Assembly: GCA_943704525.1 (NCBI GenBank)
Contig: CALSCQ010002434.1
Span: 1 to 23,930 of the forward strand
Source of the DNA: Pigoraptor vietnamica
Taxonomy: Eukaryota > Opisthokonta > Filasterea
Direction: 5' to 3'
Length of the DNA: 23,930 nucleotides
Positions 1 through 22,623 of this stretch are shown one piece after another. Within the stretch, counting starts at the first letter, position 1, and the number at the start of each line of letters is the position of its first letter. Below the pieces are notes generated by a model that was given only the letters and a program-made list of their open reading frames with translations, was not told the origin of the DNA and made no database searches. The translations under genes and the position numbers were made by a program.

Positions 1-4
1 CCCA

Positions 5-78
<74 letters not shown>
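1..78. repeat. (CA)n microsatellite at the window edge
   Basis: An almost pure CA/TG dinucleotide run of about 39 units opens the window. It lies just beyond the last recognisable exon of BBS9 on the minus strand, so it probably sits in a BBS9 intron. Its position at the very end suggests that the assembly stopped here. Confidence 0.97.
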
Positions 79-4104: not shown

Positions 4105-7028
4105 TCATCTAAAGAACACAATTATGGACCCGGGGTTGCTGCTCTCGTCAAACGACAGACCCTCTCGCACCAGGTACGAGATCACCGCAGGCCGCAGCCG
4201 CGCACGCCCGCCTGCGCTGTGGCTCCCACGACCCGTCACCACCTCCAGTGTGTCGACGGCTCGCGCGCCGCGTCCACTCGACGATCGCGCTGCCCGCTTT
4301 GCGCCGACAACAAATTCGAGCGTCGCAATGGCCTCCGCCACGACGAGGCCATGCAAGTCGAGCACGCTGAGGGCGGCGGCGTCGGCGGCGTCCAGCATTC
4401 CGAGCGACTCGCCCTGGGACGCGACAAACAGCGACACGGCGACCGCACCGCCGTCTCCCTTTCGCATAAGCAAGGGCCCGGCGAGAGCACGCTCCACCTT
4501 GGCCCGCGCAGCGTGCTCGCGCGCCGTCGCAGAGTAGTGCCCCGCGACCGCACTCTGACCTGCGTGGAAGGCTTCGGCTGCTTTGGCGACGTATTCGGCG
4601 CGCAGGGCGTCGTGGCGAACGGCAGCCGCCGCGTGTGAAGCGCGACTAGCAGCAGGCTCAGAGGCAGCCGTCCCAATGTCCGTTGCGCCGTTTTTCGCCG
4701 CAACGCGCAACGTTCTGGCTGGCACTGTGTTGTCGGCGGCGAGCGCAGACACCGCGGGCGGTCCGAAGTCGTCCGCGAGCAGCTGCACGGCCGTCTCGAT
4801 CGACTCACCGGCGGCCTCGAGAATACCCGCCAGGTCACCCGCGGGCACGGAAGGGTACATGTCACGCAGCCGCGCCAGCTTGATTTTGCCGGCAATCGAC
4901 GGGCCGTTCGCACTTCCGCTTCCGCCGGCACGTGCGCTTGGGACGCCAGCAGTGACGTCAAGCACGCGTTTCGATTTTGAATTGCCACGCCGCTTGCGCC
5001 CACGGCCGCCAGCAGAAGTCTTCTCGTCGTGCGTGTTCGTGCTGGCGTGGGCGGTTTGCATGTCAACAAGGCCGTACTCTTCCGTCAGCACGCGAACGGC
5101 AGCGTCCACGGCAAACGCGGCCGTCTCAAACACAGTCAATAGAATGTCTTCCGGCATCTCCGGAAAGCGGCGCTGGAGAGCAGAAAATCCCTCGTCCTGT
5201 TCGCCGGACGCGGCGAGCCCATTATCGGCCCGTTTGAGCGCATTCCCCTCGCCCACGCCGTCCCCCGCACTGCCCGCCGACAGAATGAACGCCACAGCCG
5301 TGTCAAATTCGCCGCCCGCGTCACGCAATGCCGCGGCGAGCGCGGCGGGTTCTGCGCCGGGAAACATCTCGCGCAGGTTCTTCAGGGCGCACCGATTTTC
5401 CTCGCTGTTCGGCAGATTTGCGGCCCTCAGCACAAACGAATTGTCGAGCGAGTCGTCGACGTCGTCGTCGGTCAGTGCATCTGGGGTCGCGCCCCCATTG
5501 AGCGTCATGTCCGCCACCGCATTCACCACTGCAACCAACGCTTCGTTCGAATTCGCATTTCCGACGGGAAAATCTTCCGACAGAAATTCCGTGACGGCAT
5601 CCAAAGTCGTGTCGAGTGCCGCGAGTGTCTCGATGGCGGCGTGCACGTCGCACTCATTCTCGCTCAGAATGGACGCAATGAGCGCACCGTCGACGCCGGG
5701 AAATGCGAGCACTAGAAAATCGAGCGCATCCGCTGGCACGTCCGAACTGGATGCGCCCACTGGCTCGTCACGTGCCAGACTGCGCTTGTACCCGGGATAT
5801 CGGGCCCACGTGCGCGACCCACGCGCAGCGCTTTGTTCAAACACAACGCGCACTGGCGATATCGGCGCAACGGGATACCGGTCCAGATCGTCGGATTGCA
5901 CGCTGCGTGCGGGCGACGTGGGCACTGGATTCGCAGAGGGCATGGTCGCACGCGGCGATGCGGGGACTTCGTTTGTGTCGCCATGTTCTGAAGACCATGC
6001 AGGGGGCGTCGCTTGCATGTATGGCGCAGGGAATGCAGCCGAGGCGGCGTCGGATTCGGGGGGCGCGTAAGACGTGATATGGGTCGACTGGGGCGCACGC
6101 GATGTTGTGTGGGGCAATTGGGGCACAGCGCCGCCCATGGTCGCGCGCACATCCGAAGACTCGAACGACCAGCCACTTGCACGCAAGGTCACGTGATCGG
6201 AAGGTGGCGCAGCGCCATATTCAAGGGGCTCATGCGCCGCGCGGGTGCTCTCGCTACTAGCTGCTGACCACGCCGTCACGTGACTTGCTGGGCGCGTGCG
6301 GACTTCCGCGTAATCGGACCGAAGAGCCGAGGCAGGGACACCCGTGCGGGAAGTGGGCATGTAGCTCGAGACATACCCGCGCGCCCACGCGGCGTCCGAA
6401 GTGGGTGCATGCGATTCACGCCCCCGTGCGTGGGACCCGTGCCGCCACGGCTCAGATCCGTATCTTCTTGCATTCGCGCCTCTTCCCTTCTCCGGTTTCC
6501 CGCGATTTCCACGGCTCCGTGCAGCGGGACGGAAAGAGTTGAAGGAGGAAGACGCGTCGACTGTCGATGCAGGCGCAAGGGAAGGGCCACTAACGTCGCG
6601 CTCCAAGTCGAAGTCGTCGTCGTCTTCGTCCAGAATGCGACCAAACGGATTGCTCCCATCACTGAAAAACAAAAGAGGCTCGTCCTCAGAGCCGCCGGGA
6701 TGCTTTCCGGCGCCTTCGCGGGCGAATTCCGCGCGTTCTGCAAAATATCTCATGTCAGTAACGCAAGTAGCAGAGCACCTCGTGAGAGTAACGCAAATGT
6801 CTCTCTGTGCTCGCACAGCGTGCACGTGCGTTCGCCCACCTTCGAGGCCCAGCGGGTTTTCCAGCCACCACCCGCGGCAATTGGGGCGCGCAAAAGGCTC
6901 TGCGCGGAAAGGGCATCGCGTAAGTTGCCGCTTGACCAACTCAATGTCCGTTTTCAGTGCGAGCACCCACCGCCCGTTACAAAATCGCCAAACCATCCTC
7001 GGTACGCAGCGCCTTCATCGCGGGCCAT
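4105..7028 (-). CDS. Cue2/N4BP2-like protein: four CUE domains, DUF1771, Smr nuclease
   Basis: The likely role is an endonuclease that cleaves mRNA at collided ribosomes (no-go decay), as shown for yeast Cue2 and animal N4BP2/NONU-1. The final exon (6737-4105) holds a Ser/Ala/Pro-rich disordered half, then four CUE-type ubiquitin-binding modules marked by FP or YP: LAFPGVD near 5700, MFPGAE near 5360, RFPEMP near 5165 and MYPSVP near 4858. A DUF1771-like helix pair (about 4630-4480) precedes the C-terminal Smr domain, with LDLHG (the DxH catalytic pair) and TGRGSHSAGG (catalytic Arg). A 102-bp intron (6839-6738) is clear. A further 71-bp intron (6970-6900) joins in phase to MARDEGAAYRGWFG at 7028, giving about 916 residues. 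The alternative start at 6996 needs no such intron and gives 929. Yeast Cue2 has fewer CUE domains, so four is notable. It shares an upstream region with XRRA1. Confidence 0.9.
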
Positions 7029-7845: not shown

Positions 7846-10800
7846 ATGGCGTCGACGTCGTTTGTTCCCACGAATTTCTTTCCCCCGCGGCAGCTGAACC
7901 GACACGGCGGCCGCGGTGAGTGCATCTGCCTTGCGAGTGTCTTGCTGGGCAGCTGTCCTTTCTGCTGCGCTGACGTGTGTTGCGAATAGGGGGCGGTATG
8001 TGGGCACGGACGTCCACTGCGACGTCAACAACGACGCCGTTTTCGGTGCATCGGCACATGAAAGAGCGGCAAAAGTTTGAGGCCTCTCTTGGCCGTCGCC
8101 CTCCCGAAAAGCTGTCTGTGGATGCCGGCGCGAAGAGCGAAACGGACACGCACAAGGGGTCGTCGGCGGTGTCCACTGTCGGCGACAACGATCGCGGCGT
8201 CTCGTGGCTGTTGGACGGCTACTACATGGTGCGTGGAACAGGCGTATTCGTGCGCTGTGTTTGTGTTTGTAAACAACGAAACATTGCCGCGTTGTTTGGA
8301 GATGCCGCTGCTGAGTATTGGGCCGTCCGCAGCTGCGCGCGTGCCATGTCGCGGACCCGGACGACGCGTACCGGTGCAAGATCAACGGGCGCAATCTGCG
8401 CGCGGTGGTGGAGGAGGACCTGCAGCACTTTCGGAACCTGACCATGCTCGAGGCGAACGAGAACACGCTGCAGTTGGGCCCGCTCGGCGCGCTCCCGAAC
8501 GTCGAGGTGATGCGGCTCGCCTTCAACGAAATACGCGACGTCGTGATAGCGCAGGGCGCATTTGCGCGGCTGGAGGTGCGTGGCGTTGCTGTCTGCGTGT
8601 GCGGAACGGGCATTCGCGGACCGCGTGCTGTTTGTGCGCATTTGCGATCCATTCCTTGTGTTGTCCCCCTTTTCCTTCTTCATTTTTCCCCCCTTTTGTT
8701 TCTTGAACAACTCACGTTCACCCACACTGTCCTCGGCAGTCGCTCGACCTCTCCTTCAATCGGCTGTCGCTCGATGCTGTTCTCGCGCTGTCCGAACTGC
8801 CGCGCCTGGAGACGCTCGACCTCACCGGAAACGGCCTCTCGTCATTTCCCGCGTACAAGCAGAGCGTCGTGTTCTTCCCGCGCCTCGCAAACCTTACCTT
8901 GGACCGCAATGCGCTATCAGAAGACGAGATGTTTGCCACACTCGCGCCGCTGCCGAGCCTAAATCGCCTGAGCGCACGCCACAACCGCATCGCTCGCGTG
9001 CCGCCCGCCGACACGGCGCGCCGCCTGCCGTGGTTCAACGCGCTCCAGTCGCTGGACGTCGCGCACAACGCCATCGCGACCGAGGACGACCTCGTGGGCG
9101 TGACGACATGGCCGGCCGTGCGGGAGCTCGTGTGCTGGGGGAACCCGCTCGCCCTCGCGCTGAAGGTCGGGTACGGGCTGATGGTTGCGCTGGTGGAAGA
9201 CCGCGGCATGAACGTGGTGAAGCAGGAGCCGGACGGCAGCGGACGCACGCGCGTGCACCTCGCGGCGCATGAGGTACTGCGTGTGAAGGAGGATCCCCTG
9301 CCGCCTATAGTGCGCGGGCAGCTGCAGATCACGTTTCCCTCCAAGGTGCGTCGAGTGGTCGCTAGCTGCGATGACCGCTGCGCAGACCGAGTTCTGTGTT
9401 ATTTGCTGTTGCGTCTGCTTGGGATTCGACATTGATGGCAGCACTGGTCCTTGACGCTGCGTGGCTCGTTTCTCCATTGTTGTGTGCGTGTGTGTGCTGA
9501 TGTGTCTGCGTGCGCACGTGCGCAGGAGGAGTCGTCGAGCAGCGAGTCGGAATCGTCGTCGGAAAGCGAGGAGGAAGAGGCGTCGAGCGAATCCGACGGG
9601 TCGGACTCTGATTCCGACGACAGCAAGAGCTCGTCCGACGAGTCCGAGTCGGAGGACAGCAATTCCGACAGCTCGGAAAAGCGCTCGAAGGCGAAGCGGA
9701 AGAAGCGCAGCGCCAAGGACAAGGGCAAAGAGAGTGACGCGAAGGAGGCGAAAACCAGCAAGGAAACCAAGGGGACTGACGAGCGAAAAGGGGGCGACGC
9801 CCCGCCTGCACCATCATCCGGGGGTTTCTTCATGACGCAGGCCGACGAGCCCGCAGGCGCCCCTACGGCTCCGTCGGGTGTGCAGCCCGTTACTGCCGAG
9901 GCGCTTTCTCTGCTCGAGGCGGCGGCGGTCGCGCCGAAGCCGGTGGCCGCCGTGGTGCCGCGGCGGTATCGAGGGTACGAGGCGCTGCTGTCGATGGACC
10001 CGGAGGAGGGCGACCCGCCGGCGGTGGACTTGCCAAGCGACACGCGCGGGGCTGTGCAGGCGCTGCGCTATGCCCTTGCGCGCCCGCTCGTATTTTCGGA
10101 CAAGCCGTCGCTGGCAGGGTACAAGCGTCGCAATCAACTCAAGCGGCAGATGCAGGACTCGCTGGCATCCCGCACGGCCGCGAAGGCGCTCAGCAAGACG
10201 CGCGCGCAGGTGGCCGCGGCGAACCGGCAAGCGTCGCAGGGACAGCTACCGCCCCCACGGCGCGCGTCGCTCGCGCTGACGGTTGTTGCACCAGACAGGC
10301 GTGCCTCTCAGCTACCAGGGGACCGTCGTGCGTCGCAACTACCGGGCGACCGTCGTGCCTCCCAATTGCCCGGCGATAGGCGCGCGTCCCAATTGCCTGG
10401 CGACAGGCGCGCGTCCCAATTGCCTGGCGACAGGCGCGCGCCCCAATTACCCGGCGATAGGCGCGCTTCTCAACTGCCGCCGCCGGCGGGTGCGAGGCGA
10501 ACGTCGCAATTGCCCACGGGCGACCGCAGGGGGTCGCAACTTCCGCCGCCCGCCAACCGCCGCACGTCGCAAGCACCGGCCACTGGGGACAGGCGGGGAT
10601 CCCAGCTGCCCCCGAACCGGCGCACGTCGCAGGTCCCTTCGGCAGCCGACCGTCGCGCATCGGTGGCACCACAGACGCCCTTGAGCGCTCTCTCGGCACC
10701 GCTATCGCAGACTGGCGCGACGTCCACGCAGATTGTTGTGCACGCTCTCGCCTCGACGCTCGCGGAGCTGGCGACGGCACCCGGCTACCGCGCGCCGTAT

Positions 10801-12006: not shown

Positions 12007-15000
12007 TCAGTCGGACTGTCCAACGGGCGGGACGCGTTGTCCTTGCACGAGACTGACGGGAGGGGCGGGCGGCGCCGGCAACCGTGCGTGCAAATCCGAA
12101 TACGATGCGATGGGCTCACTATCGTATTGCGACAGCCCCATCTCCGTGCCGGGGTAACTATCGTCACAACCCGCGGGAGTGCTCTTGGTCCGACCGTCCC
12201 ACTCCGATGCGAGCTCCACGAACACACCGAGCAGGTCCAGTATGCGCGCGAACGAGGGGCGCAGGGCGGGATCTTCGTTCCACGCGGCCACCATCAGCGC
12301 CGCCCACGGCTCTGGACAATTCGCGGGTGTCGGCGGGCGCAGGCGGTAGTGGGAAACGAGGCGGATAATGTCCTCGCGCGAGAGATCCGTGTGCGGGAGG
12401 CGCCGGCAGAGCAACTCCCACAGAATGACGCCTGCATGGGAAACAGCGACGGTCACAAACAGTGCGTAACGGCAGCAGTCAACCGCAGCGCCGCACGCTT
12501 AATAGCTCGCTGCGTGGCATCGCCAGACCATCGCAAATTCTTCTGGACCCACCGAAGCTGTAGGCGTCCGCCTTTTCGCCTTCGAATGGGACTTTGCGCA
12601 CGACCTCCGGCGCCATCCTGCGGTCCAATGGACAGGGTTGCTGGCATGAGTATATACGCCTACTCCGCAGTGGGCCAAAGAGTAAGACGATGATATTGCG
12701 CGCCATTGTGAGTGCACAAGTGCTCTCGGTTGACGCGAGCAGTCGCAACGCACCACAGCAGCGTCCCCGTGCGGCCCACGTCAAGCTTTCTTCCGCGCTT
12801 GAATTCTGCCAATCCAAAATCGCCGACCTGAACCATATTTAGAGGGTCATTTTAGATCACTTCGAGGGAATTATGCAGTGAAGGACGCTCCCCTGGCATG
12901 CGTAGATTTCGCATAAGCACGCACCTTCACGCGCATGGCTTCGTCGACAAACAAATTGAGGCTCTTGAGATCGAGGTGGTCTGTGGAAATGGATCAACAC
13001 GGCAGACAAAATGAGATCACTGCAACCCGGGGCACATGTGACGTCCCACTGGCCATCATCTTACTCACATATGGGCGGGTTGGATGCGTGCAAGTAGGCG
13101 AGCCCTCGCGCGGCATCCGTCGCTGTTGGGGTTGGGAATTGTCACCCGCACAGCCAACCCTCGCTTGCAATGTGCGCACACTTGGTTTGACGCGTGCACA
13201 GGGATTGAAACGGGTGCAATTGCGCCTATGTGTTAGCCCACTAACCCATTTCAACACGCAGACGCCAGTCCATTCCAATCTGCGGGTTGCTGTAGACGTC
13301 GTAGAGGCTGCCGCGCGCCATCAGCTCAACAACAATGGCGAGTTCGGGGTCTGCGGACGGAGAAGCCATACTCAGCATGCGGCGCACACAGGCACAGAGG
13401 TTTGAGTGTGGAACTGAAGAGCGACTACCACTCACACTGCACACTCGCGGCGAGAAGCATGACGATGTTCGGATGGCGGAGTGCGCTCATCGTACGCACC
13501 TCCTGCGCCATCACAGGGAAACAATGAACTTGAGCATTTGGAATGCGCAATCAAAGATATCTAATGTCACACCACACTCAAAGCACACACCTTCATGAAG
13601 CCGGCGACCGCGGGCTTGAATACGTCCGAGGGTATCTTCGCGGGCGGCGGCTTAGCGACAGTTAATGCCTTGCCCTTCGCGTTTCTGTCCCCTCCATCGG
13701 CGATTGGCTCGAAGAGGAGGCTGCTTGCGATGGCGTCCACGCGGCCACGCGCACCCATGCGCTTGACTGGCGCCACTTCCACGCCCTTGATGCAGAGCGT
13801 CTTGATCGCCACGTGGGACCCGCGGAAGGAGCCCTGCGGTGGTACCGTTAGTTCGCCGATGTGGGATAAAGCCGAGTGCGCAATTGACATACTCACCAGG
13901 TACACTTTGCCGTACGTTCCCTGCACCCAAGCAAACACAGATAAGTCGACGTCACAACACGCACAGACCCTGTCGGCGAAAACGATGCATGGGCACTACA
14001 TACAATGTACAGTATGGTCACAAGAGTTAAAAAGGCCAATACAAACCTGTCCGAGGAGTGTCTGGAACGAGAGCTCACGGAAATCGACCTCGTAGTTGCG
14101 CTCCTCGCGCTCGATCGCTTTCTTCTTTCGCCAGTACATGACGGCACCAAAAGCAGCGACAGCAACAACGGCCGCGGGAATGACCGCAAACACAGCCGAC
14201 GACGTGTGCGCTGCATGCCGAGGCTGTTAAAGTTACATACAAACCCCGGGTGGTCCTCCCCCTCTTTCCTTTTCTCACAAGACCATTTCCCAGGAACCCA
14301 CCTGCTGACGACAACTCCACACAAATAGGGTAGCTCGTCCCATCGATCGTTTCGGCACTTGTGTAGAAGCCCTTTCCGCATGGTAGCACAGTTGCGACGA
14401 ACGAAGCCGATATGTTCGACGTACGAAAGAACGGCGAGGCAGAGATGAGCGCCACAGTGTACGTGCCGGGATCTGCGAAGATGCGCACGGACGGGAACTG
14501 CGCGGTCGAGTGCAGGACGGCCTTCTTCGTCAGTCCCTGGAGGCGCACGCGCGGCGCCAACGCATTGCCGCGCCCGAGCGGCGACAGTGGGCGCGCCTCC
14601 ATATTGATGAGGAGCACGTGGTACGGATCGGTCGCTGTCCACTGGCCGTATGCGTCCAGTGCGACGACGCTGACGGTCGGCAAAAGCCCGCCGCTCGTAA
14701 CGACAACGGGTCCACTCGACGCAAGCGACACGCCGATAGATCGCGGCGGCGTAGCCACGGCCGACGTAAGCGCGTCCGCCGTACCCGGTCGAGAGGCAAA
14801 GGTGCAGTTCACAATGTCACGGCCGACGACAAAGTACGATTGCGTCTGCGTCGAAAAGCACGCACTTCCAAGCTTGGCTACATTGCCAACGAAGGCCGTG
14901 TCCCGCAGCTTCGCGGATGCGCCTGACGACGGGTCGAGGAGAACGGCGCCCCCTTCGCCGCCGTCCACGTCGCGCACCACGTTGGCGATGAATGCGGACG

Positions 15001-16828
15001 CGCTCACCTCGAGGCGGCCCTGCGAAGTAACCGAAACGGCGCCGCCACCAACCCCTGCGCTGTTACTCCGCAGCGTGCACTCGCTCAAATATGCCGAAGC
15101 GGAATCCGTTACGAGCAGCACACCACCACGCGAAGCGGACGGCGCGGCCGTGTTGTTCTCAAACACGCAACGAAACGCCTCGAGCACCGAGGCGGTGTCG
15201 AAAAATATGGGCGCTTTGGCGGGCCCCATCGACGTGTTGTTTACGAAACGCGAGTCGCACATACGCAGACGGCCGTCGTCCGATCCGGCGACGACTTTCA
15301 GGCCGACATGGTCGCGAATTACAGTCTGAGTGACGTTCACTTCGGCCCACGCCTGGATGGCGGCGACCGAGCCCGAATTGCGCGCGATGAGGCTGCGCTC
15401 GACAGTCAAGCGCCCGCCGCCCTCAGCGTGGATGCATCCACCATAGTATGTCGCGGCGAGGTTGTCCGTACATTCCGAGTCCGCGAACAGGACGTGCGCA
15501 CTCCCACGAGCGCCGAAGCCCCCGCCTGACTCATACCCGGTGTTGCCGGTCACCACGCACCCGCGCACCACCACGGTCGCCGCCAGCGTCGCAAACAGGC
15601 AGCCCCCAGTGAACCCCGCGTAATTCCCACGGCACACGCAGTCCGTCACTGAGACATTCGACGCTGCGCCTGTCACATACAGGGCTCCCCCAAAGTCGAG
15701 CACTTTCGAGTCCTCGAGAACGCTCCCGTGCAAGGCGACCCGCCCTGCGTCCTGCAAGGACAACGCACCGCCCCAGCCAGCCGTCGCCGAATTCGCCGTC
15801 AAATTCGTACGCTCCACCGACACAAACGCGGACAGGAGCGCATACACACCACCGCCGGCGTCAACCGCCGTGTTGCCGTCGATGCCTGATTGGTCGACGG
15901 CGAAATGTCCGTCAGAGGTGACGGACGCGCACCCGCCGGTCTGTTTCGCGGAATTGCGCGCGCAACGGGACGCGAACACGTCGGCGCGGCTGTACCCCGA
16001 CACAGCCATCGCACCGCCGCTGAGGGCTGCGTTTCCTGTGAAGTCGCATTGCGACAGCGACACGGACCCTCCGCCGCTAACGGCCAGCGCACCGCCCGTC
16101 GCCGCCGTGTTGTTCTCAAAGTGTGAGTCGGTCACAGTGCCCTCCGCTCCGCCCGAGAGGACCACTGCGCCACCCGCGTCCACCGCAGCGTTCCCACTGA
16201 ACACGCATGCCTCCAGGGTCACCGACGCAGACGCACCCGTCACGTGCACACCGCCGCCGTTGTTCGTTGCGCTGTTGTTGCTGAATGCGCATCCAGTGCA
16301 TCTAAAGTGCGCATCGCTCACTCGAACCGCACCCCCCTTCGCAGCGCCCGCGTTACCCACAAACAACGACCCCACCGCCGTCGCATTCGCTCCGCCCGAC
16401 ACGCACAGCGCCGAGCCAGCGCAGTTCGAGAAGGTCAGATTCGTAAAAACCACGACGACAGACGCACCGCCGGAGATGTCGAGTCCCGCACCCGCAGCGC
16501 CATTTGCGCACGCAACAGTTGCACTTCCGTCGCCAGCACTGGCGAGTGAGAGCGCAAAAGTCACTGCCACACCCGCATCGAGCACGTGCACACCCGCATG
16601 CAGCACAATAGTGGGTGCGCTAGAACCGCCGGTGACCTGCGCCGCAGCGACGGCCGCAGCGAGGGACGCGAGGGGATGCGTTGCGTTGCCGCGACCGTCC
16701 GCGTCCACACCGCCCGAAGAGGGTGTGGCCACGTGGAGCACCTGTGCACGCACGATAAAGACGGTGTGCGCCCAAACTGACAGCGCGATTGCAATGGCGG
16801 CAGACCGAGTCACGTGACGTGTCGCCAT
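12007..16828 (-). CDS. Receptor kinase A: Pmp-like beta-helix ectodomain, TM, non-RD TKL kinase
   Basis: Eleven exons give about 1,267 residues: 16828-14302, 14210-14047, 13920-13897, 13833-13591, 13502-13436, 13350-13246, 13122-13069, 12980-12925, 12827-12754, 12617-12553 and 12431-12007. A signal peptide ends near VRAQVLHV. About 600 residues of right-handed beta-helix follow, with repeated GGAV/GGAL/GGAM and FxxN (FSNNS, FSGNA, FENNT, FTGNA) as in chlamydial Pmp proteins. A beta-sandwich-like segment (VSVVALDAYGQW), a Cys-containing stalk, one membrane helix (VIPAAVVAVAAFGAVMYW) and a basic stop-transfer KKK come next. The kinase has GQGTYGKVYLG, VAIK (K916), alpha-C Glu987, HLDLKSLN (D1065), DFG (1083) and MAPEV; catalytic residues are intact but HRD Arg is Leu. 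An upstream in-frame ATG at 16864 is less likely because 16828 starts the signal peptide. A Pro-rich tail with two Tyr (DSYPG, SQYDS) ends the protein. Confidence 0.9.
16083..16744 (-). repeat. Inverted-repeat arm 1 (662 bp), N-terminal ectodomain
   Basis: Read on the minus strand, this block matches 17550-18211 over exactly 662 bp without an insertion or deletion; about 11 of 220 encoded residues differ. It starts at the CAG/CAA codon after the signal peptide and ends at GGTGCGCTGGC, after which the two genes diverge sharply. The arms are separated by 805 bp. Confidence 0.92.
16809..16818. promoter_or_regulatory. GTCACGTGAC palindrome inside kinase A signal-peptide codons
   Basis: This perfect 10-bp E-box palindrome lies about 10 bp downstream of the presumed ATG at 16828, where it encodes R-H-V-T. 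The identical sequence flanks the start of kinase B at 17448-17457, so the two boxes mark both ends of the shared promoter. Confidence 0.45.
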
Positions 16829-17006
16829 TTCCGTTGGCCGGCAGTGGGCTGGCGGCAACGTCACTGAATATCACAGCGCTCAGCGAACGTAGCTGTGGGA
16901 CTTCGAGTAAAGTGGGGTGCGTGTGTGTTGTGCCCGCTCGACGCAGAGCAACTGCGAGCAACCCGGCTATGTGGCGGCGCGTCAACTTCGGCTGCGGTTA
17001 CCCCAC

Positions 17007-17024
17007 TGGACAACGTATTGTCCA
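17007..17024. promoter_or_regulatory. 7-bp dyad with CCAAT box
   Basis: TGGACAA and TTGTCCA form perfect arms around CGTA. The right arm runs into CCAATCA. The site is near the middle of the divergent promoter and is a candidate binding site for a dimeric factor plus NF-Y. Confidence 0.4.
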
Positions 17025-17242
17025 ATCAGAGCACACCAGGTGGCTAAAAATTGCATGCCCCCACCCGTTCCCCGGCATGTTCGTGTCCGAGTTGACGACT
17101 TCTCGAGTTCCAGAGTGGCTGCTGCCCCGGCGTGCGACCATGTGCGCGTGTCGCATCCGGGCAGTCGCGTATGCGCCGGTTGCAGTCGACCTCTGTATCC
17201 ACCGTGGGCTCGGTGCGCCGGCTCCCGGCCGACCGCCGCCGT

Positions 17243-17286
17243 CCGGCGGCCGGCGACGCCGGCGCCGCCGATCCGCCGGCCGCCGG
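17243..17286. repeat. Perfect 13-bp GC inverted repeat (hairpin)
   Basis: CCGGCGGCCGGCG at 17243-17255 is exactly reverse-complementary to CGCCGGCCGCCGG at 17274-17286, with an 18-nt loop that is itself GC-rich. It lies in non-coding DNA between the divergent kinases, and such a stem would be very stable in DNA or RNA. Confidence 0.85.
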
Positions 17287-17447
17287 CTGGCGGCGGGGGC
17301 CGTGCTCAGCCGAGCCCGCAGCCCGTGGGCGGCACTGGCAGCGAAGAAGTGACCGTGCTGGCAGCGAACGCGGTGCGCCCTGCTTATAACAACAGGTGGC
17401 ATACGCGAGAGTGATTCGGCCTGCTCAGAGTGCCCCGCGCGCCAACT

Positions 17448-17457
17448 GTCACGTGAC
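17448..17457. promoter_or_regulatory. GTCACGTGAC palindrome 14 bp upstream of kinase B ATG
   Basis: This perfect 10-bp E-box palindrome is placed where a core-promoter or 5'-leader element would be. The same 10-mer also occurs at 855-864, 6275-6284 and 16809-16818. Confidence 0.5.
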
Positions 17458-17471
17458 CCGCACGTTGTAAA

Positions 17472-20400
17472 ATGGCCGCCTCGGTGACACTCGTCGTGGC
17501 ACTGCTGTGCTTTCACGCCGTTCCCACGACATGCGCACCCCCGCAGCCGCAAGTGCTCCACGTGGCCACACCCTCTTCGGGCGGTGTGGACGCGGACGGT
17601 CGCGGCAACGCAACGCATCCCCTCGCGTCCCTCGCTGCGGCCGTCGCTGCGGCGCAGGTCACCGGCGGTTCTAGCGCACCCACTATTGTGCTGCACGCGG
17701 GTGTGCACGTGCTCAATACGGGTGTGGCAGTGACTTTTGCGCTCTCACTCGTCAGTGCTGGCGACGGAAGTGCAACTGTTGCGTGCGCAAATGGCGCTGC
17801 GAGTGCGGGACTCGACATCTCCGGCGGTGCGTCTGTCGTCGTGGTTTTTACGAATCTGACCTTCTCGAACTGCGCTGGCTCGGCGCTGCGCGTGTCGGAC
17901 GGAGCGAATGCGACGGCTGTGGGGTCGTTGTTTGTGGGTAACGCGGGCGCTGCGAATGGAGGTGCGGTTCGAGTGAGCGATGCGCACTTTAGATGCACTG
18001 GATGCGCATTCAGCAACAACAGCGCAACGAACAACGGCGGCGGTGTGCACGTGACGGGTGCGTCTGCGTCGGTGACCCTGGAGACATGCGTGTTCAGTGG
18101 GAACGCTGCGGTGGACGCGGGTGGCGCCGTGGTCCTCGCGGGCGGAGCGGAGGGCACTGTGACCGACTCACACTTTGGGAACAACAAGGCGGCGACAGGC
18201 GGTGCGCTGGCGGCGAACGGAGGGACTCTGTCTGTCGTTTCGAGTGCCATCGTCAGCAATAAGGCCACGAACGGCGCGGGGTTTTTTCTGTCCAATGGCG
18301 CGTGTCTGGACATGGTCGCCGGCCTGTGCAGCGCCAACAGAGCGCGCACCGGTGGCTGTGCGCATGTCACCACGGCCGCCAACGCGTCGTTCCGCGGCGT
18401 TGCGATTGATTCCAACACAGTGAACGACCAGGGTGCCGGCGTATGGGCGATTGGGTCCTCAGCGCTGTTCGACGGCGTGCATGCCTCCCAGAACGCCGTG
18501 CTCGGTGGCTCCGGTGGCCTCTTCTACGGCGAGGAAAGTGCGGTCGTTGCTCGCGGCTGCGTTATCGAGCGTAACTACGCCAGCGAAAAGGGCGCCGGTT
18601 TCATGCTGGCCCTCAATGCGCACATGCAGTTCAGCGACTCGACATGCCGGTGGAACAACGGCGTCCGGGACAGCGGGTGCGCGCACGTGCAGCGGGGATC
18701 CGCTGCTTTGATCGACCGCGTGCGTGTGGATTACAATTACGGGCGGCGCTCCGCCATCAATGTGTGGTACACGTCCACGCTGCACATGAGCGACTCGACG
18801 TGCGACGGAAACGCGGCGCTGCTATCGTATGCGGCGTGCGTGTACGTGTCTGATTCGAACGGATATTTTGCGCGCGTGAACTTCACAAACAGCTGGGGCG
18901 TGACGTGGGTGTCGGCCGTCCTGTGTGACGGCGTGGCGGTCGCTGAGATCTCCTCGTCGATCGTCGCCAACAATTACCGCGAGTCGGCGCTGATGCTGTG
19001 GGACACGGCCGAGGCGCGCGTCACGGACACGGTCTTCCGCAACAACACGTGCTCGGAGACGGCCTACGGTGGCGGTGCGATTGTGGCGATGGACTCGACG
19101 CGCCTCGCGGTGACGCGGTGCATGTTTGATGCGAATCAGGGGCGGAAGTCGGCGGGCGCGGGGGGTGCGGGGGGTGCGGTGACGGTGATGACGAGCGCCC
19201 AGGCCACCTTCTCGGACTCTGTGTTTGTGGGCAACGTGGCGCAGTCGGGTGGTGGGGCGCTGAACGTCCGGGACAACGCGGCCGCGCATGTCACGGGCTG
19301 TCGGTTCGGCAACAATGTGGTGTTGGATGGTGACCTGGGCACCGGCGGTGCCATTCTCTACGCCCCCGCGGCCGGTCCATCGGCCATGTCCATCAACAAC
19401 TCAACGTTCGCCGCGAACACGGCGTCGTTTGGGAGCGACATTTATTCCGCGGACGTGGCTCGTCCACTGCTCTTCGGGGCCAACATCGCCGGCTGCGCCT
19501 TTACGGAGGGCGCTTCTGTCACAAGCCCTCCCGTTTCGATTTCGATCGCGCCCTCCACACGAGGCCCCTTTTCAGTCGCGAGCGGTGGCACTCTCCCGCC
19601 GATCAGCGTGTCTGCCGTCGACGCCTACGGTCGTCCCGTAGTGCCGCTCTCGTCGCGCGTGCTTATCATCGAGCTGAGCCTGAGAACCCCCGGCGCTGCT
19701 GTGCCCGCCACGGGTGCCGCGCTGCAGGGCAACACGGAGGCGGCGGTGCTCACGCCCGATGTGCCGTTCTCTGACGTCCGCGTGTTTGCGCCGTCGGGAA
19801 CGTACGCACTCGTGGTGGGTTCGGGAACACCGCTGTACGACCGCACCGTGTTTCTTGATGCCGCCCCCGTCACGGTGACGCCGTGCGTTTGGCCAATGTT
19901 GGAGGCGTCGGTTGTTGTCAACGGGCAAACTGTGCTCGCGTGCCAAGCCTTCTCCGAAGGCTCAGGTACGTCCATCTTGACGTCGCGTTACATTGGCGAC
20001 TTCATGGCGTTCGCACTGTGCGTTTACGTGCGTGGATTCTTGACGTCGCGTCACATTGGCGATTTTATGGCGTTCGCACTGTGCGTTCACGTGCGTGGAT
20101 TCTTGACGTTGCGTCACATTGGCGATTTTATGGCGTTCGCACTGTGCGTTTACTTGCGTGAATTTGTGTTTAGCCTCACTCTCAAGCACTGATCGTGTCA
20201 CTTCGCAAGAGACTTTCTCTGATGTGATTGCGCGTGCGCACTATCCTGATGATGTCATCTAGCTGTGCATCCGTTTGAAAAGCGTGAACTTGGGGGAGGG
20301 GTCGTCTGCCGTCGTCGCTTATTGGTCTGTATAATCGCAGGCTCCATTTCAGTCGCCGTGTTCGCTGCGGTCATCCCGTGCGCCGTTGTAACGGCTGCTG

Positions 20401-22623
20401 TTACGCTGGGTGTGCTCTACTGGCGCAAGAAAGCGCTGATGGAGCGCAACGCACGGAAGTACGAGGTCGAATTCCGCGAGCTCACGTTCATCTCGCAGAT
20501 TGGGCGGGTGAGTAGGCCCCTGTGTGCGAAGTCGTGTTCTGTTGCGGCATATGACACGTTATTTATAACATTCAACCTTTGCGCATGCAGGGGTCGTACA
20601 GCACCGTGTACCTGGTGGGTCCACCGACAATGTATATTACGTGTGCATGCGTGTGCCTCGCTGTGTTTCGTGTGCGACTGCTTACGCGCGCGCTGCCGGC
20701 CCGCGAGCCTCATACGACATCACCCGTCCGTTCACAGGGCTCCTTCCGCGGGTCCCACGTGGCGATCAAGACGCTCTGCATCAAGGGCGTGGAAGTGGCT
20801 CCCGTCAAGCGCACCAGTGCCCCCGGCCGCGCGGATGCATTCGCGAGCAGCCTTGTGTTCGAGCCGATGGGCGAGGAAGAGGAACCCGACGGAAAGGGAC
20901 ATGGTGCGCGCGTGCTAGGCGGGCGCGCTCAGATTCCGTCGGACGTATTCAAGCCCGCGGTAGCCGGCTTCATGAAGGCGCGTGTGCTTCGAGTATGCCG
21001 TCCTTGGTTCATGCATTCCGAATGCTCAAGTTCTCTGTGTTTCCTTGTGATGACGCAGGAAGTGCGCACGATGAGCGCACTCCGCCATCCGAACATCGTC
21101 ATGCTTCTCGCCGCCAGTGTGCAGTGTGAGCTCGGTTGCCAATAGGAAGTCGTGTGCCCCTGTGCCGCGAGCTGAGTCCTCTGTCTCCGCAGACCCCGAA
21201 CTCGCCATTGTGGTTGAGCTGATGGCGCGCGGCAGCCTCTACGACGTCTACAGCAACCCGCAGATCGGAATGGACTGGCGCCTGCGCGTCTCCATGGGTG
21301 GGCCACCTGCCGCGCTTTCTGCACGCATCGCTCCCCCGCCCTTGCAATGTGCGTATGCTCACACTCTTCTATGACCGGCATGCAGCAACCGACGCCGCAC
21401 GCGGACTTGCCTACTTGCATGCGTCGAATCCGCCCATATGTGAGTGCCGCGGCGTTAATCAGGCAACCCCAATTAAAGCCGTGCCGCCGAATCTGTGTTG
21501 GCTGCGTGCAAAGCTGCGCTATTGCCTTCGCGCTGATCACTGTCCCTCGCAGACCACCTCGACCTCAAGAGCCTCAATCTGTTCGTTGATGAGGCCATGC
21601 GCGTGAAGGTACGACTTCAGTTCCCCCTTCTGCGCCATCTTGCAGTCATGCCTTGCGAACGGCTGGCCTTCGTTCTCTCAGGTGGGCGACTTTGGTCTCG
21701 CCGAATTCAAGCGCGCAAGTGGCAAACTCGACGTTGGGCGCACGGGAACACTGCGGTGGTGAGAGTTATCACTGGGAGTGTTGTGGATCCATCTGCGCTT
21801 GAAGTGCTCGTACTGAAAGCTCATTCATTCCGTACGCTGAGGCAGGATGGCACCCGAGGTGCTGAGCGGCAAGTCTTTTGAGGGCGACAAGGCCGACGTG
21901 TACAGCTTCGGTGAGTGGATCGTCCTTACATCTTGCAGCTCGCGTGCCAACAAAATTTCACCCATGCCACCGCGCTCTTCTAGACACACGTGCACACTCG
22001 CCCGCGCACGCAGAGACACGCACTCTCGCCCGGCGTGCACTATCACTTTCAGCACATTAACGCACAACACTAACACGCACACATTTCGCCTCGCACACAC
22101 TCAACACGCAGGGATTGTCTTGTGGGAACTGCTGTGCCGGCGGCTGCCGTATGCGGAGGGGCGGCACGAGCACACGCGGCAGGACATCATTCGGCTCGTC
22201 AAGGAGGACCGCATGCGCCCCCATGTGCCGCCGCACTGCCCTGAGCCGTGGGCTCTGCTGATGGCCGCCGCGTGGGGCGACGACCGTGCTCAAAGGCCCT
22301 CCATGAGTCACGTGCTCTCGACGCTTGAGGACTTCGACCCCGTCGGATGGCCTGTGGACGAAGCGGTTGCTGCGCTACGTGCCCGCCCTATGCCGCCGCT
22401 GGACGACGGGTATGCGAGCGGAAGCACAGAGGGAGGGAACATGATCCGCGAGGGGGGTACGGGGTCGTCGCCGCACTTTGAGACCGACGCGCGTGCGCCC
22501 GTGCGGCAGGGGCACCTCCGCATTGGCGTTGCTGATGGATACGAAGGCCACGTACGGTTGCCGCAAAGCGCCGATCGACCGGGACCGCGCGGGGCGGACC
22601 GCGACGACCAGGCTACTTCTTGA
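17472..22623 (+). CDS. Receptor kinase B: Pmp-like beta-helix ectodomain, TM, non-RD TKL kinase
   Basis: Paralogue of kinase A with identical exon structure and phases: 17472-19965, 20341-20507, 20591-20614, 20738-20977, 21059-21125, 21193-21297, 21386-21439, 21553-21608, 21682-21758, 21846-21910 and 22112-22623, about 1,286 residues. A signal peptide (LVVALLCFHAVPTTCA) leads into a GGA/FxxN beta-helix of about 600 residues, a beta-sandwich-like segment (ISVSAVDAYGRPV) and one membrane helix (VAVFAAVIPCAVVTAAVTLGV) with WRKK after it. Kinase motifs are GRGSYSTVYLG (third Gly of the loop is Ser), VAIK (K906), alpha-C Glu976, HLDLKSLN (D1054), DFG (1072), RWMAPEV and DVYSFGIVLWELL; HRD Arg is Leu. 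Intron 4 uses a GC donor. The tail after the kinase is about 100 residues, charged and disordered, and unlike that of kinase A. The ligand is unknown; the downstream targets are unknown. Confidence 0.92.
17550..18211 (+). repeat. Inverted-repeat arm 2 (662 bp), N-terminal ectodomain
   Basis: This is the partner of 16083-16744 in opposite orientation, encoding the first four to five beta-helix coils of kinase B. The reading frame and length are preserved exactly; beyond 18211 similarity to kinase A falls to ordinary paralogue level. Confidence 0.92.
19977..20165 (+). repeat. Three 63-bp tandem repeats in kinase B intron 1
   Basis: Units begin at 19977, 20040 and 20103 with an exact 63-bp period; the last is degenerate at its end. 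They lie inside the 375-bp intron between the ectodomain and transmembrane exons. Read through from exon 1 they stay open and give a hydrophobic 21-residue repeat around IGDFMAFALCVYVRGFLT, ending at a stop at 20190. Confidence 0.93.
20591..20614 (+). other. 24-nt microexon encoding the kinase B glycine loop
   Basis: The microexon encodes GSYSTVYL and is flanked by ATGCAG and GTGGGT. It is phase 0 on both sides. The minus-strand paralogue has the same 24-nt exon (13920-13897, GTYGKVYL) between GTGCAG and GTGAGT. Confidence 0.9.
20978..21058 (+). other. 81-bp GC-AG intron of kinase B, in frame and without stop
   Basis: The donor is AAG|GCGCGT and the acceptor GACGCAG|GAA. Removing it joins FMK to EVRTMSALRHPNIV, exactly as in kinase A, which uses AAG|GTGTGT. 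Because it is 81 bp with no stop, retention would only insert 27 residues before helix alpha-C. Confidence 0.8.

Follow-up and report, generated by a model that had tools for sequence, protein, structure and literature searches.

A divergent pair of beta-helix receptor kinases with a near-identical N-terminal cassette in Pigoraptor vietnamica

Two divergent receptor kinase genes

The window analysed here is the whole 23,930-nucleotide stretch of Pigoraptor vietnamica contig CALSCQ010002434.1. It contains two divergent genes, A (12007–16828, minus strand) and B (17472–22623, plus strand), with 643 bp between their start codons. The splicing of both genes was modelled by hand from the sequence, with introns predicted by eye. 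Gene A encodes a type A beta-helix receptor TKL kinase of 1267 aa in 11 exons (minus strand: 16828–14302, 14210–14047, 13920–13897, 13833–13591, 13502–13436, 13350–13246, 13122–13069, 12980–12925, 12827–12754, 12617–12553, and 12431–12007). Gene B encodes a type B beta-helix receptor TKL kinase of 1288 aa, also in 11 exons (plus strand: 17472–19965, 20341–20507, 20591–20614, 20738–20983, 21059–21125, 21193–21297, 21386–21439, 21553–21608, 21682–21758, 21846–21910, and 22112–22623). The 10 predicted introns of each gene are all GT-AG, and neither model contains a premature stop. The hand-spliced models thus bear out the proposal of the initial annotation that two full-length genes diverge from a 643-bp spacer (16829–17471), which presumably serves as a bidirectional promoter.

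Intron 1 of B (19966–20340, plus strand; 375 bp) contains three copies of a 63-bp unit. A spliced alignment with A as query placed the donor of B exon 1 at 19784 and also shifted intron 4 slightly; this alternative was dropped and the hand model of the exon 1 donor was kept because the junction GGCTCAG/GTACGT joins the frame. Intron 4 of B has a possible GC donor two codons earlier.

Exon 1 of A (14302–16828, minus strand) encodes a signal peptide, a beta-helix up to about residue 680, and an Ig-like membrane-proximal domain (residues 685–841). Exon 1 of B (17472–19965, plus strand) encodes a signal peptide, a beta-helix, and a membrane-proximal domain, as judged from sequence, the fold prediction being of A. 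In both genes, exon 2 (A, 14047–14210, minus strand; B, 20341–20507, plus strand) encodes the transmembrane segment, the juxtamembrane region, and the start of the kinase. The most hydrophobic 19-residue windows immediately precede the kinase (A, residues 849–867, score 2.52; B, residues 834–852, score 2.48) and are followed by WRKK. The proteins start with a signal-peptide-like hydrophobic segment (A, residues 10–28; B, residues 1–19), and the other hydrophobic windows within the ectodomains (three in A and two in B) are weaker (1.63–1.83). By hydropathy, A and B are therefore predicted to be single-pass receptor kinases with a signal peptide, one transmembrane helix joining ectodomain to kinase, as initially proposed, and an inner kinase.

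The coupling in A and B depends on introns predicted by eye, and secreted beta-helix proteins might merely adjoin unrelated kinase genes; one contig counted by position, C618, proved to be such a case. However, three paralogues couple both parts with no need of an intron. A single open frame contains Beta_helix (1.2e-12) and the first kinase half (1.2e-25; model positions 3–131 of 258) in C717, Beta_helix (3.7e-9) and the first kinase half (4.5e-22; model positions 2–126 of 258) in C761, and the ectodomain and the whole kinase (3.1e-74) in C327. Four more models, with start codons only partly modelled, have a similar order and introns (covering the kinase in C912p, C912m, and C184p and running to the end of the contig in C184m), and in 16 contigs a beta-helix match never has a kinase match ahead of it within 6 kb on its strand. 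Therefore, we give such an artefact next to no credence, and separate genes for ectodomain and kinase, the objection raised in the initial annotation, are very unlikely.

Ectodomain fold, kinase type and gene family

The motif [FILV]xxN-x3-10-G[GA]x occurs 11 times in each ectodomain, as compared with means of 1.2 and 1.4 and a maximum of 6 in shuffled ectodomains (2000 each). Both ectodomains match Pfam Beta_helix PF13229 (A, 7.1e-26; B, 3.2e-21). AlphaFold2 predicts a regular beta-helix for A (five models, mean pLDDT 49.6–68.7), in which ten-residue blocks of residues 121–620 have mean pLDDT of 67–97. In a fold search, the A model gives a best Z of 29.7 (rmsd 3.0 over 477 residues) and matches Vag8 (Z 27.3 over 384 residues) and pertactin (Z 22.0 over 428 residues), as well as epimerases, polysaccharide lyases, and phage tail proteins; no PDB sequence matches the ectodomain at 0.01. 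The fold is a right-handed parallel beta-helix of the general pectate-lyase type, PF13229, with three-stranded coils of ~27 residues, in agreement with the secreted beta-helix with GGA and FxxN repeats described in the initial annotation. The helix is shorter than the residues 30–830 there put forward for structure prediction. It stops near residues 660–680, and residues 685–841 of A form a separate Ig-like beta-sandwich (mean pLDDT 79.4 in the best of five models, 36 and 32 in two others), whose best fold match (Z 8.8 over 97 residues) is too low for a family name.

The ectodomains had also been called chlamydial Pmp-like. Chlamydial Pmps, pertactin, and Vag8 do form long right-handed beta-helices that contain GGA and FxxN repeats, but A and B lack an autotransporter domain and fuse the helix to a transmembrane segment and a kinase, which occupies the C-terminus in place of an outer-membrane beta-barrel. 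Chlam_PMP (PF02415) scores 24.9 bits against a cut-off of 20.6 in A, with no single stretch significant, and is absent from B, and neither protein matches autotransporter or Pmp middle-domain models in Pfam at E up to 0.1. The beta-helix thus stands, but the Pmp label is weak, PF13229 being far stronger, and "chlamydial" is too narrow a term for this fold. A chlamydial or other lateral origin was considered and rejected. A whole-genome search with PF02415 gave no match at E 0.001 (42 candidates scored), and none of 128 pattern matches in bacterial and archaeal genome contigs or 40 in viral contigs was confirmed as a relative, in scans with two short peptide patterns each that could miss distant relatives.

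Both kinases match Pfam PK_Tyr_Ser-Thr (A, 1.5e-46; B, 7.8e-44). The closest solved chains to the A kinase are CTR1 (8.5e-52), MLK, and DLK; B-Raf and a small number of tyrosine kinases rank below them. VAIK, DFG, and APE are present, as are a catalytic and activation segment of the TKL type, which is marked by HxDLKSxN and GTxxWMAPEV; the TKL assignment made earlier is supported. The catalytic loop, encoded by exon 8 (A, 12925–12980, minus strand; B, 21553–21608, plus strand), reads HLDLKSLN in both and not HRDLAARN, the type that marks receptor tyrosine kinases of the TK group. Leu replaces the Arg before the catalytic Asp, which is usual but not required in TKL kinases, making A and B non-RD. 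Lacking this Arg, these kinases would probably be less dependent on activation-loop phosphorylation. HLD also replaces HRD in C912p, C912m, C184p, C1370, and C455; the TKL member C1006 has HRD, and the sequence of C1189 ends before the loop.

After hand checks, the genome contains at least 18 beta-helix receptor kinase genes, of which nine are TKL and nine have tyrosine-kinase-type loops. Among the latter, C327 and C465 have the loop HRDLAARN, and PDB matches also assign C327 to the tyrosine-kinase type. Counting each exon separately, the genome has 27 SH2 matches. The kinase at C618 (HRDLKPEN and YAAPE) belongs to another group, and C618 was excluded from the family. Two sister pairs, each of one type A and one type B gene as in the window, lie at C184 and C912. 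C1370 probably carries the remaining part of gene C184m, as both contig ends enter CA/TG repeats and the kinase coordinates of one continue those of the other. The initial annotation noticed neither the family nor its tyrosine-kinase branch, nor the homogenised cassette at the N-terminus described below. In this family, one rod-like ectodomain sits on TKL as well as TK-type kinases, which suggests that sensing and signalling parts have been exchanged repeatedly. Single-celled eukaryotes that have tyrosine-kinase signalling serve to study what pre-animal receptors sensed.

Receptor tyrosine kinases of holozoans and Acanthamoeba are likewise single-pass, with diverse, lineage-specific ectodomains on a conserved kinase, and excerpts of PMC8662651 and PMC4053784 treat domain shuffling and the Acanthamoeba kinases; neither set of excerpts mentions a beta-helix, a term that occurs 0 times in PMC8662651, and the kinases of A and B are TKL rather than TK. 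The GDT and DRK TKL receptor kinases of Dictyostelium also have a signal peptide, an extracellular region, one transmembrane segment, and a TKL kinase, and their rk1 and rk2 have closely related ectodomains. In contrast to the beta-helix of the window pair, excerpts of the source (PMC1420674) describe GDT-specific, DRK-specific, or TIG ectodomains with no mention of a beta-helix. The initial annotation knew of no characterised eukaryotic receptor class with exactly the present architecture, and the literature matches listed, with subscription papers mostly outside their scope, contain no description of a beta-helix receptor kinase. This claim is tempered by the insulin-receptor L1 domain, which is part of a receptor-kinase ectodomain and is also termed a beta-helix (in a reference title within the excerpts of PMC2577065). 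Its sequence family differs from that of A and B, which do not match the receptor L-domain profile in Pfam at E up to 0.1.

The N-terminal cassette

The A cassette (16083–16744, minus strand; approximately residues 29–249) and the B cassette (17550–18211, plus strand) are the two arms of an inverted repeat, in the same codon phase and 97.4% identical over 662 bp with no gap. A second comparison gives 97% between 16071–16744 and 17550–18223. The 805 bp between the arms (16745–17549), which hold the presumed promoter together with the signal peptides of A and B, lie outside the similar tract. The cassettes are thus in-frame inverted repeats flanking the presumed promoter.

In the three pairs, the cassette (residues 29–246) is 91–97% identical within pairs and 41–56% between pairs. 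Its dS is 0.034, 0.045, and 0.098 within pairs and 1.2–1.8 between pairs; for residues 247–842, the within-pair dS is 1.55, 1.62, and 1.28. Differences at fourfold sites are few in each of three consecutive cassette segments (0/55, 2/52, and 2/46 in the window pair; 3/53, 3/54, and 1/47 in the C912 pair; 5/48, 6/53, and 2/27 in the C184 pair). In trees, the cassette clusters by locus (97–99% bootstrap) and residues 247–842 by type (100%); residues 843–980 and the kinase do not clearly follow either. As a control, DNA matches of at least 150 bp at 90% or more among 23 sequences (133 kb), leaving out overlaps of sequence pieces and CA repeats, comprise only the three within-pair tracts. The low cassette dS within pairs and the divergence by type beyond it indicate recurrent gene conversion within pairs up to one boundary, which best explains the pattern in these sequences.

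A proposed shared sensing tip and alternative explanations

By sequence, the N-terminal ~220 residues lie at the far end of a long beta-helix rod, away from the membrane, and may bind a ligand, probably a surface polysaccharide or a protein of another cell. The near-identical outer tip in three pairs suggests that partners read the same outside signal. We therefore propose, with a probability of about 0.5, that each pair is a matched pair of receptor kinases in which the partners have a sensing tip in common but differ in stalk and kinase, so that both would see the same ligand and relay it differently. The three pairs are a natural experiment, the tip being common to partners and differing between loci, on where specificity may lie.

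Conversion between adjacent inverted repeats can be neutral, which weighs against a functional shared tip. The identity might be a by-product with no function, and the boundary near residue 246 the limit set by prior divergence of A and B. We regard this as a real possibility, at odds below even. All three pairs have the boundary at about one position, which would follow from its inheritance from an ancestral pair, and short kinase stretches are also alike in the window (93 bp at 95% and 114 bp at 93%, in the regions of exons 5 and 6) and in the C912 pair (exon 5 region, 76 bp at 97%). Moreover, the within-pair cassette dN/dS (0.70, 0.59, and 0.34) does not clearly fall under the values between pairs (0.27–0.38), and thus gives no sign of selection for identity. 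However, the C912 genes are convergent with cassettes ~9.8 kb apart, yet the cassette is the long homogenised part, and their 3' parts, which lie closest, are mostly not homogenised (kinase dS 1.30).

Alternatively, the in-frame repeats could flip the 805-bp segment with promoter and signal peptides, swapping the promoter side between A and B with both frames intact, and conversion would be the footprint of this expression switch. Arms of 662–674 bp at 97%, inverted and in the same codon phase around the spacer, fit such a flip, as does the head-to-head C184 pair with its 385-bp spacer; at C912, inversion of the gene bodies would give a like outcome. We consider the switch improbable, since the assembly has one orientation per locus and conversion without crossing-over yields the same pattern. 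Its extension, an invertible receptor switch that plays one tip specificity through alternative stalks and kinases and leaves cassette homogenisation as its trace, is more doubtful still; if true, it would mean that receptors of a eukaryote undergo phase variation.

In divergent pairs of the matched-receptor kind proposed here, one intergenic region is common to both genes. In the convergent C912 pair, the copied sequence lies instead just upstream of both mature starts; the similarity extends ~330 bp upstream of the mature start and includes the signal-peptide codons. Pair members may act as homo- or heteromers, and their non-RD kinases would probably act with a partner, by analogy with plant non-RD immune receptors. 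According to excerpts of PMC3411088, FLS2, EFR, and XA21 are likewise single-pass receptors with a non-RD kinase, a class linked to microbial sensing, and plant non-RD kinases typically have Cys or Gly at the position of the Leu of A and B. The ectodomain of these plant receptors is of the LRR type. CTR1, the plant TKL kinase that is the best solved relative of the A kinase, is not itself a non-RD receptor like FLS2. In C912m, the loop reads HLDLNSHN and the catalytic-loop Lys is lost, so one C912 partner may be inactive; this counts against the matched-receptor reading, as do the Cys or Gly of the plant kinases and the HRD of the TKL member C1006. The pairs also make up a candidate group of non-RD receptors from a protist.

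Gene structure, predicted fold and kinase of A and B

Genes A and B were spliced by hand on GT-AG sites, and most B junctions were recovered from protein A with a purpose-written spliced aligner. A runs from 16828 to 12007 on the minus strand and B from 17472 to 22623 on the plus strand, each in 11 exons. These models agree with the initial annotation, which had the gene coordinates, the divergent layout and the 643-bp spacer right. The first exon encodes the entire ectodomain (842 codons in A, 831 in B). It is followed by a transmembrane exon and a kinase split among small exons, with intron positions in the kinase matching between A and B. Against Pfam, A matches Beta_helix at 7.1e-26 and PK_Tyr_Ser-Thr at 1.5e-46, and B matches them at 3.2e-21 and 7.8e-44; each ectodomain has 11 repeat motifs, versus a maximum of 6 in 2000 shuffles. 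Intron 1 of B contains three 63-bp (21-codon) repeats, and its frame is open from 19966 to 20192 (plus); if retained, it would yield a secreted ectodomain lacking transmembrane segment and kinase. The palindrome GTCACGTGAC lies close to both start codons, at 16809 (within codons 4–7 of A) and 17448 (~15 bp upstream of the B start), with two further copies at positions 855 and 6275 of the window.

Exon 1 of A was modeled by AlphaFold2, with B as the sole other alignment row (mean pLDDT 68.7, best of five models). In residues 121–620, each coil has roughly three short strands, and ten-residue blocks average pLDDT 67–97; the model of residues 1–110 is poor. Among the 670 chains top-ranked by Foldseek, the best structural match is phage tail protein 8egr (Z 29.7, 477 residues), followed by Vag8 (Z 27.3), alginate epimerases, a cyanophage tailspike, a capsule lyase and pertactin (Z 22.0). 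Many of these act on or bind polysaccharides or adhere to cells, but the predicted fold by itself does not show function. The beta-helix claim leans on the model, the ~27-residue period and PF13229, because the Foldseek matches taken by themselves are weak (best E 4.6e-5, with TM 0.17; five matches at 0.001). When residues 685–841 of A are folded separately, the best model (mean pLDDT 79.4) is a beta-sandwich, with a best Z of 8.8 in a fold search; the base of the rod is therefore probably an Ig-like domain.

The kinase retains the glycine loop, VAIK, DFG and APE. Its sequence places it in the TKL group, since the nearest solved chains are CTR1 (8.5e-52), MLKs and DLK, and then B-Raf. The catalytic loop of A and B is HLDLKSLN. 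HLD also occurs in C912p, C912m, C184p and C455 (genes on other contigs; p and m, plus and minus strand) and in C1370, probably the remainder of C184m; C1006 has HRD, and C1189 ends before the loop. A review states that all plant non-RD receptor kinases then characterised function in microbial recognition (PMC3411088). For a protist, this statement offers a lead and does not amount to a test, and the plant proteins typically have Cys or Gly at the position where A and B have Leu. In C912m (L002, C912:10301-16500, minus), the loop is HLDLNSHN, in which Asn takes the place of the usual Lys, and the activation segment is altered; the kinase of this partner may therefore be weak or dead.

A homogenised N-terminal cassette in three gene pairs

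In a codon alignment of the six close genes (the window, C912 and C184 pairs), residues 29–246, the cassette or tip, are 91–97% identical within each pair, with dS of 0.034 (window), 0.045 (C912) and 0.098 (C184). Between pairs, the cassette is 41–56% identical (dS 1.2–1.8). Residues 247–842 within pairs are 16–45% identical by segment (dS 1.3–1.6). A tree of residues 247–842 separates A, C912p and C184m from B, C912m and C184p with 100% support, the cassette tree groups by locus with 97–99% support, and trees of the transmembrane-to-kinase parts give no clear grouping by locus or type. At the sequence level, this shows two histories, one for the cassette and one for the remaining ectodomain.

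The homogenised DNA tracts are 16744–16083 versus 17550–18211 in the window (662 bp, 97.4%, gapless), 3259–2625 versus 3645–4285 in C184 (92.8%) and 4577–5560 versus 16308–15338 in C912 (94.0%). The C912 tract extends ~330 bp upstream of the mature start and covers the signal-peptide codons. These are the only DNA matches of ≥150 bp at ≥90% among 23 sequences (overlaps and CA repeats excluded); the C912 kinases share a 76-bp stretch that is 97% alike. Given how different the cassettes of the three pairs are, homogenisation must have taken place in each pair separately. The simplest history would be that an ancestral pair, A+B, whose members had a tip in common, was duplicated twice as a unit, with later conversion inside each pair up to the inherited divergence point. 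A seventh cassette, cut by a contig end, lies at C1168:11000-12578 (L019); what is left of it shows 46% identity to A.

Pair layouts and the shared tip

The window and C184 pairs are head to head, with tips adjoining the shared spacer; the C912 pair is tail to tail, with tips ~9.8 kb apart. In C912, similarity still extends over the tips and immediately upstream of them, but the neighbouring kinase parts mostly differ (dS 1.30). Proximity alone therefore appears insufficient to explain which part is homogenised. For this reason we mildly favour a functional reading, in which tip identity would give one tip with two outputs, over neutral conversion of the tips without function. The within-pair dN/dS (0.34–0.70) does not decide between them. 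A further, bolder hypothesis is an inversion switch: the window tips are inverted and in phase on either side of the presumed promoter, and crossing-over between them would flip the promoter and signal peptides while keeping both reading frames intact. In C912, crossing-over would flip the gene bodies, with like effect.

Earlier reports describe receptor kinases with lineage-specific ectodomains in Dictyostelium (TKL; PMC1420674), Acanthamoeba (PTK; PMC4053784) and holozoans (PMC8662651), and a reference title within PMC2577065 terms the insulin-receptor L1 domain a beta-helix. None of the literature matches listed describes, as far as their visible text goes, a receptor kinase that carries a long beta-helix of the Pmp type. 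What is unusual here is the concerted tip.

The receptor family and the rest of the window

A and B are members of a family, not an isolated pair. Matches of several searches, hand-copied and partly selected, were placed together; all counts are lower bounds, as only the best candidates were scored. On 16 of 1395 contigs, a match to the beta-helix or the ectodomain precedes a same-strand kinase or transmembrane match by no more than 6 kb; the reverse order was not found among these matches. C618 was removed after its kinase was read, leaving at least 18 genes on 15 contigs. Nine are TKL members: A, B, C912p, C912m, C184m, C184p, C455, C1189 (cut off by the contig end) and C1006 (one clear coil only, within the stretch examined). 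Nine are of tyrosine-kinase type by loop (C327, C465, C717, C761, C602, C915, C848, C1076 and C1378), with HRD in all except C1378 (HAD). In C717 and C761, a single open frame joins Beta_helix to the first half of the kinase. C327 (L007, C327:8000-13300) is a single frame of 1378 aa with the whole kinase at 1056–1319, PDB matches that are tyrosine kinases, and an ectodomain similar to A (tblastn 4.6e-8); neither this ectodomain nor the C465 frame reaches PF13229 at 0.001. The C327 kinase domain has an HRDLAARN loop and matches PDB chain 9p9u_A, labelled EGFR, at 7.7e-78 in two stretches (next chain, 5.6e-58). SH2 has at least 27 matches in the genome, counted per exon.

Elsewhere in the window, a 969-aa open frame (4105–7014, minus) has CUE (6.2e-12) and then, below cut-off, DUF1771 and Smr, in that order; we take it to resemble a Cue2/N4BP2-type ribosome-rescue nuclease. 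A 536-aa open frame without Pfam match at 0.01 includes 27- and 54-bp tandem repeats (10294–10478, plus), and a 51-bp tandem repeat of 3.9 copies lies at 1238–1433. Assembly breaks fall in microsatellites, as contigs start or end in long CA/TG runs (window 3–78; ends of C184, C1370, C1076 and C1189); the C184 break is apparently inside a receptor gene.
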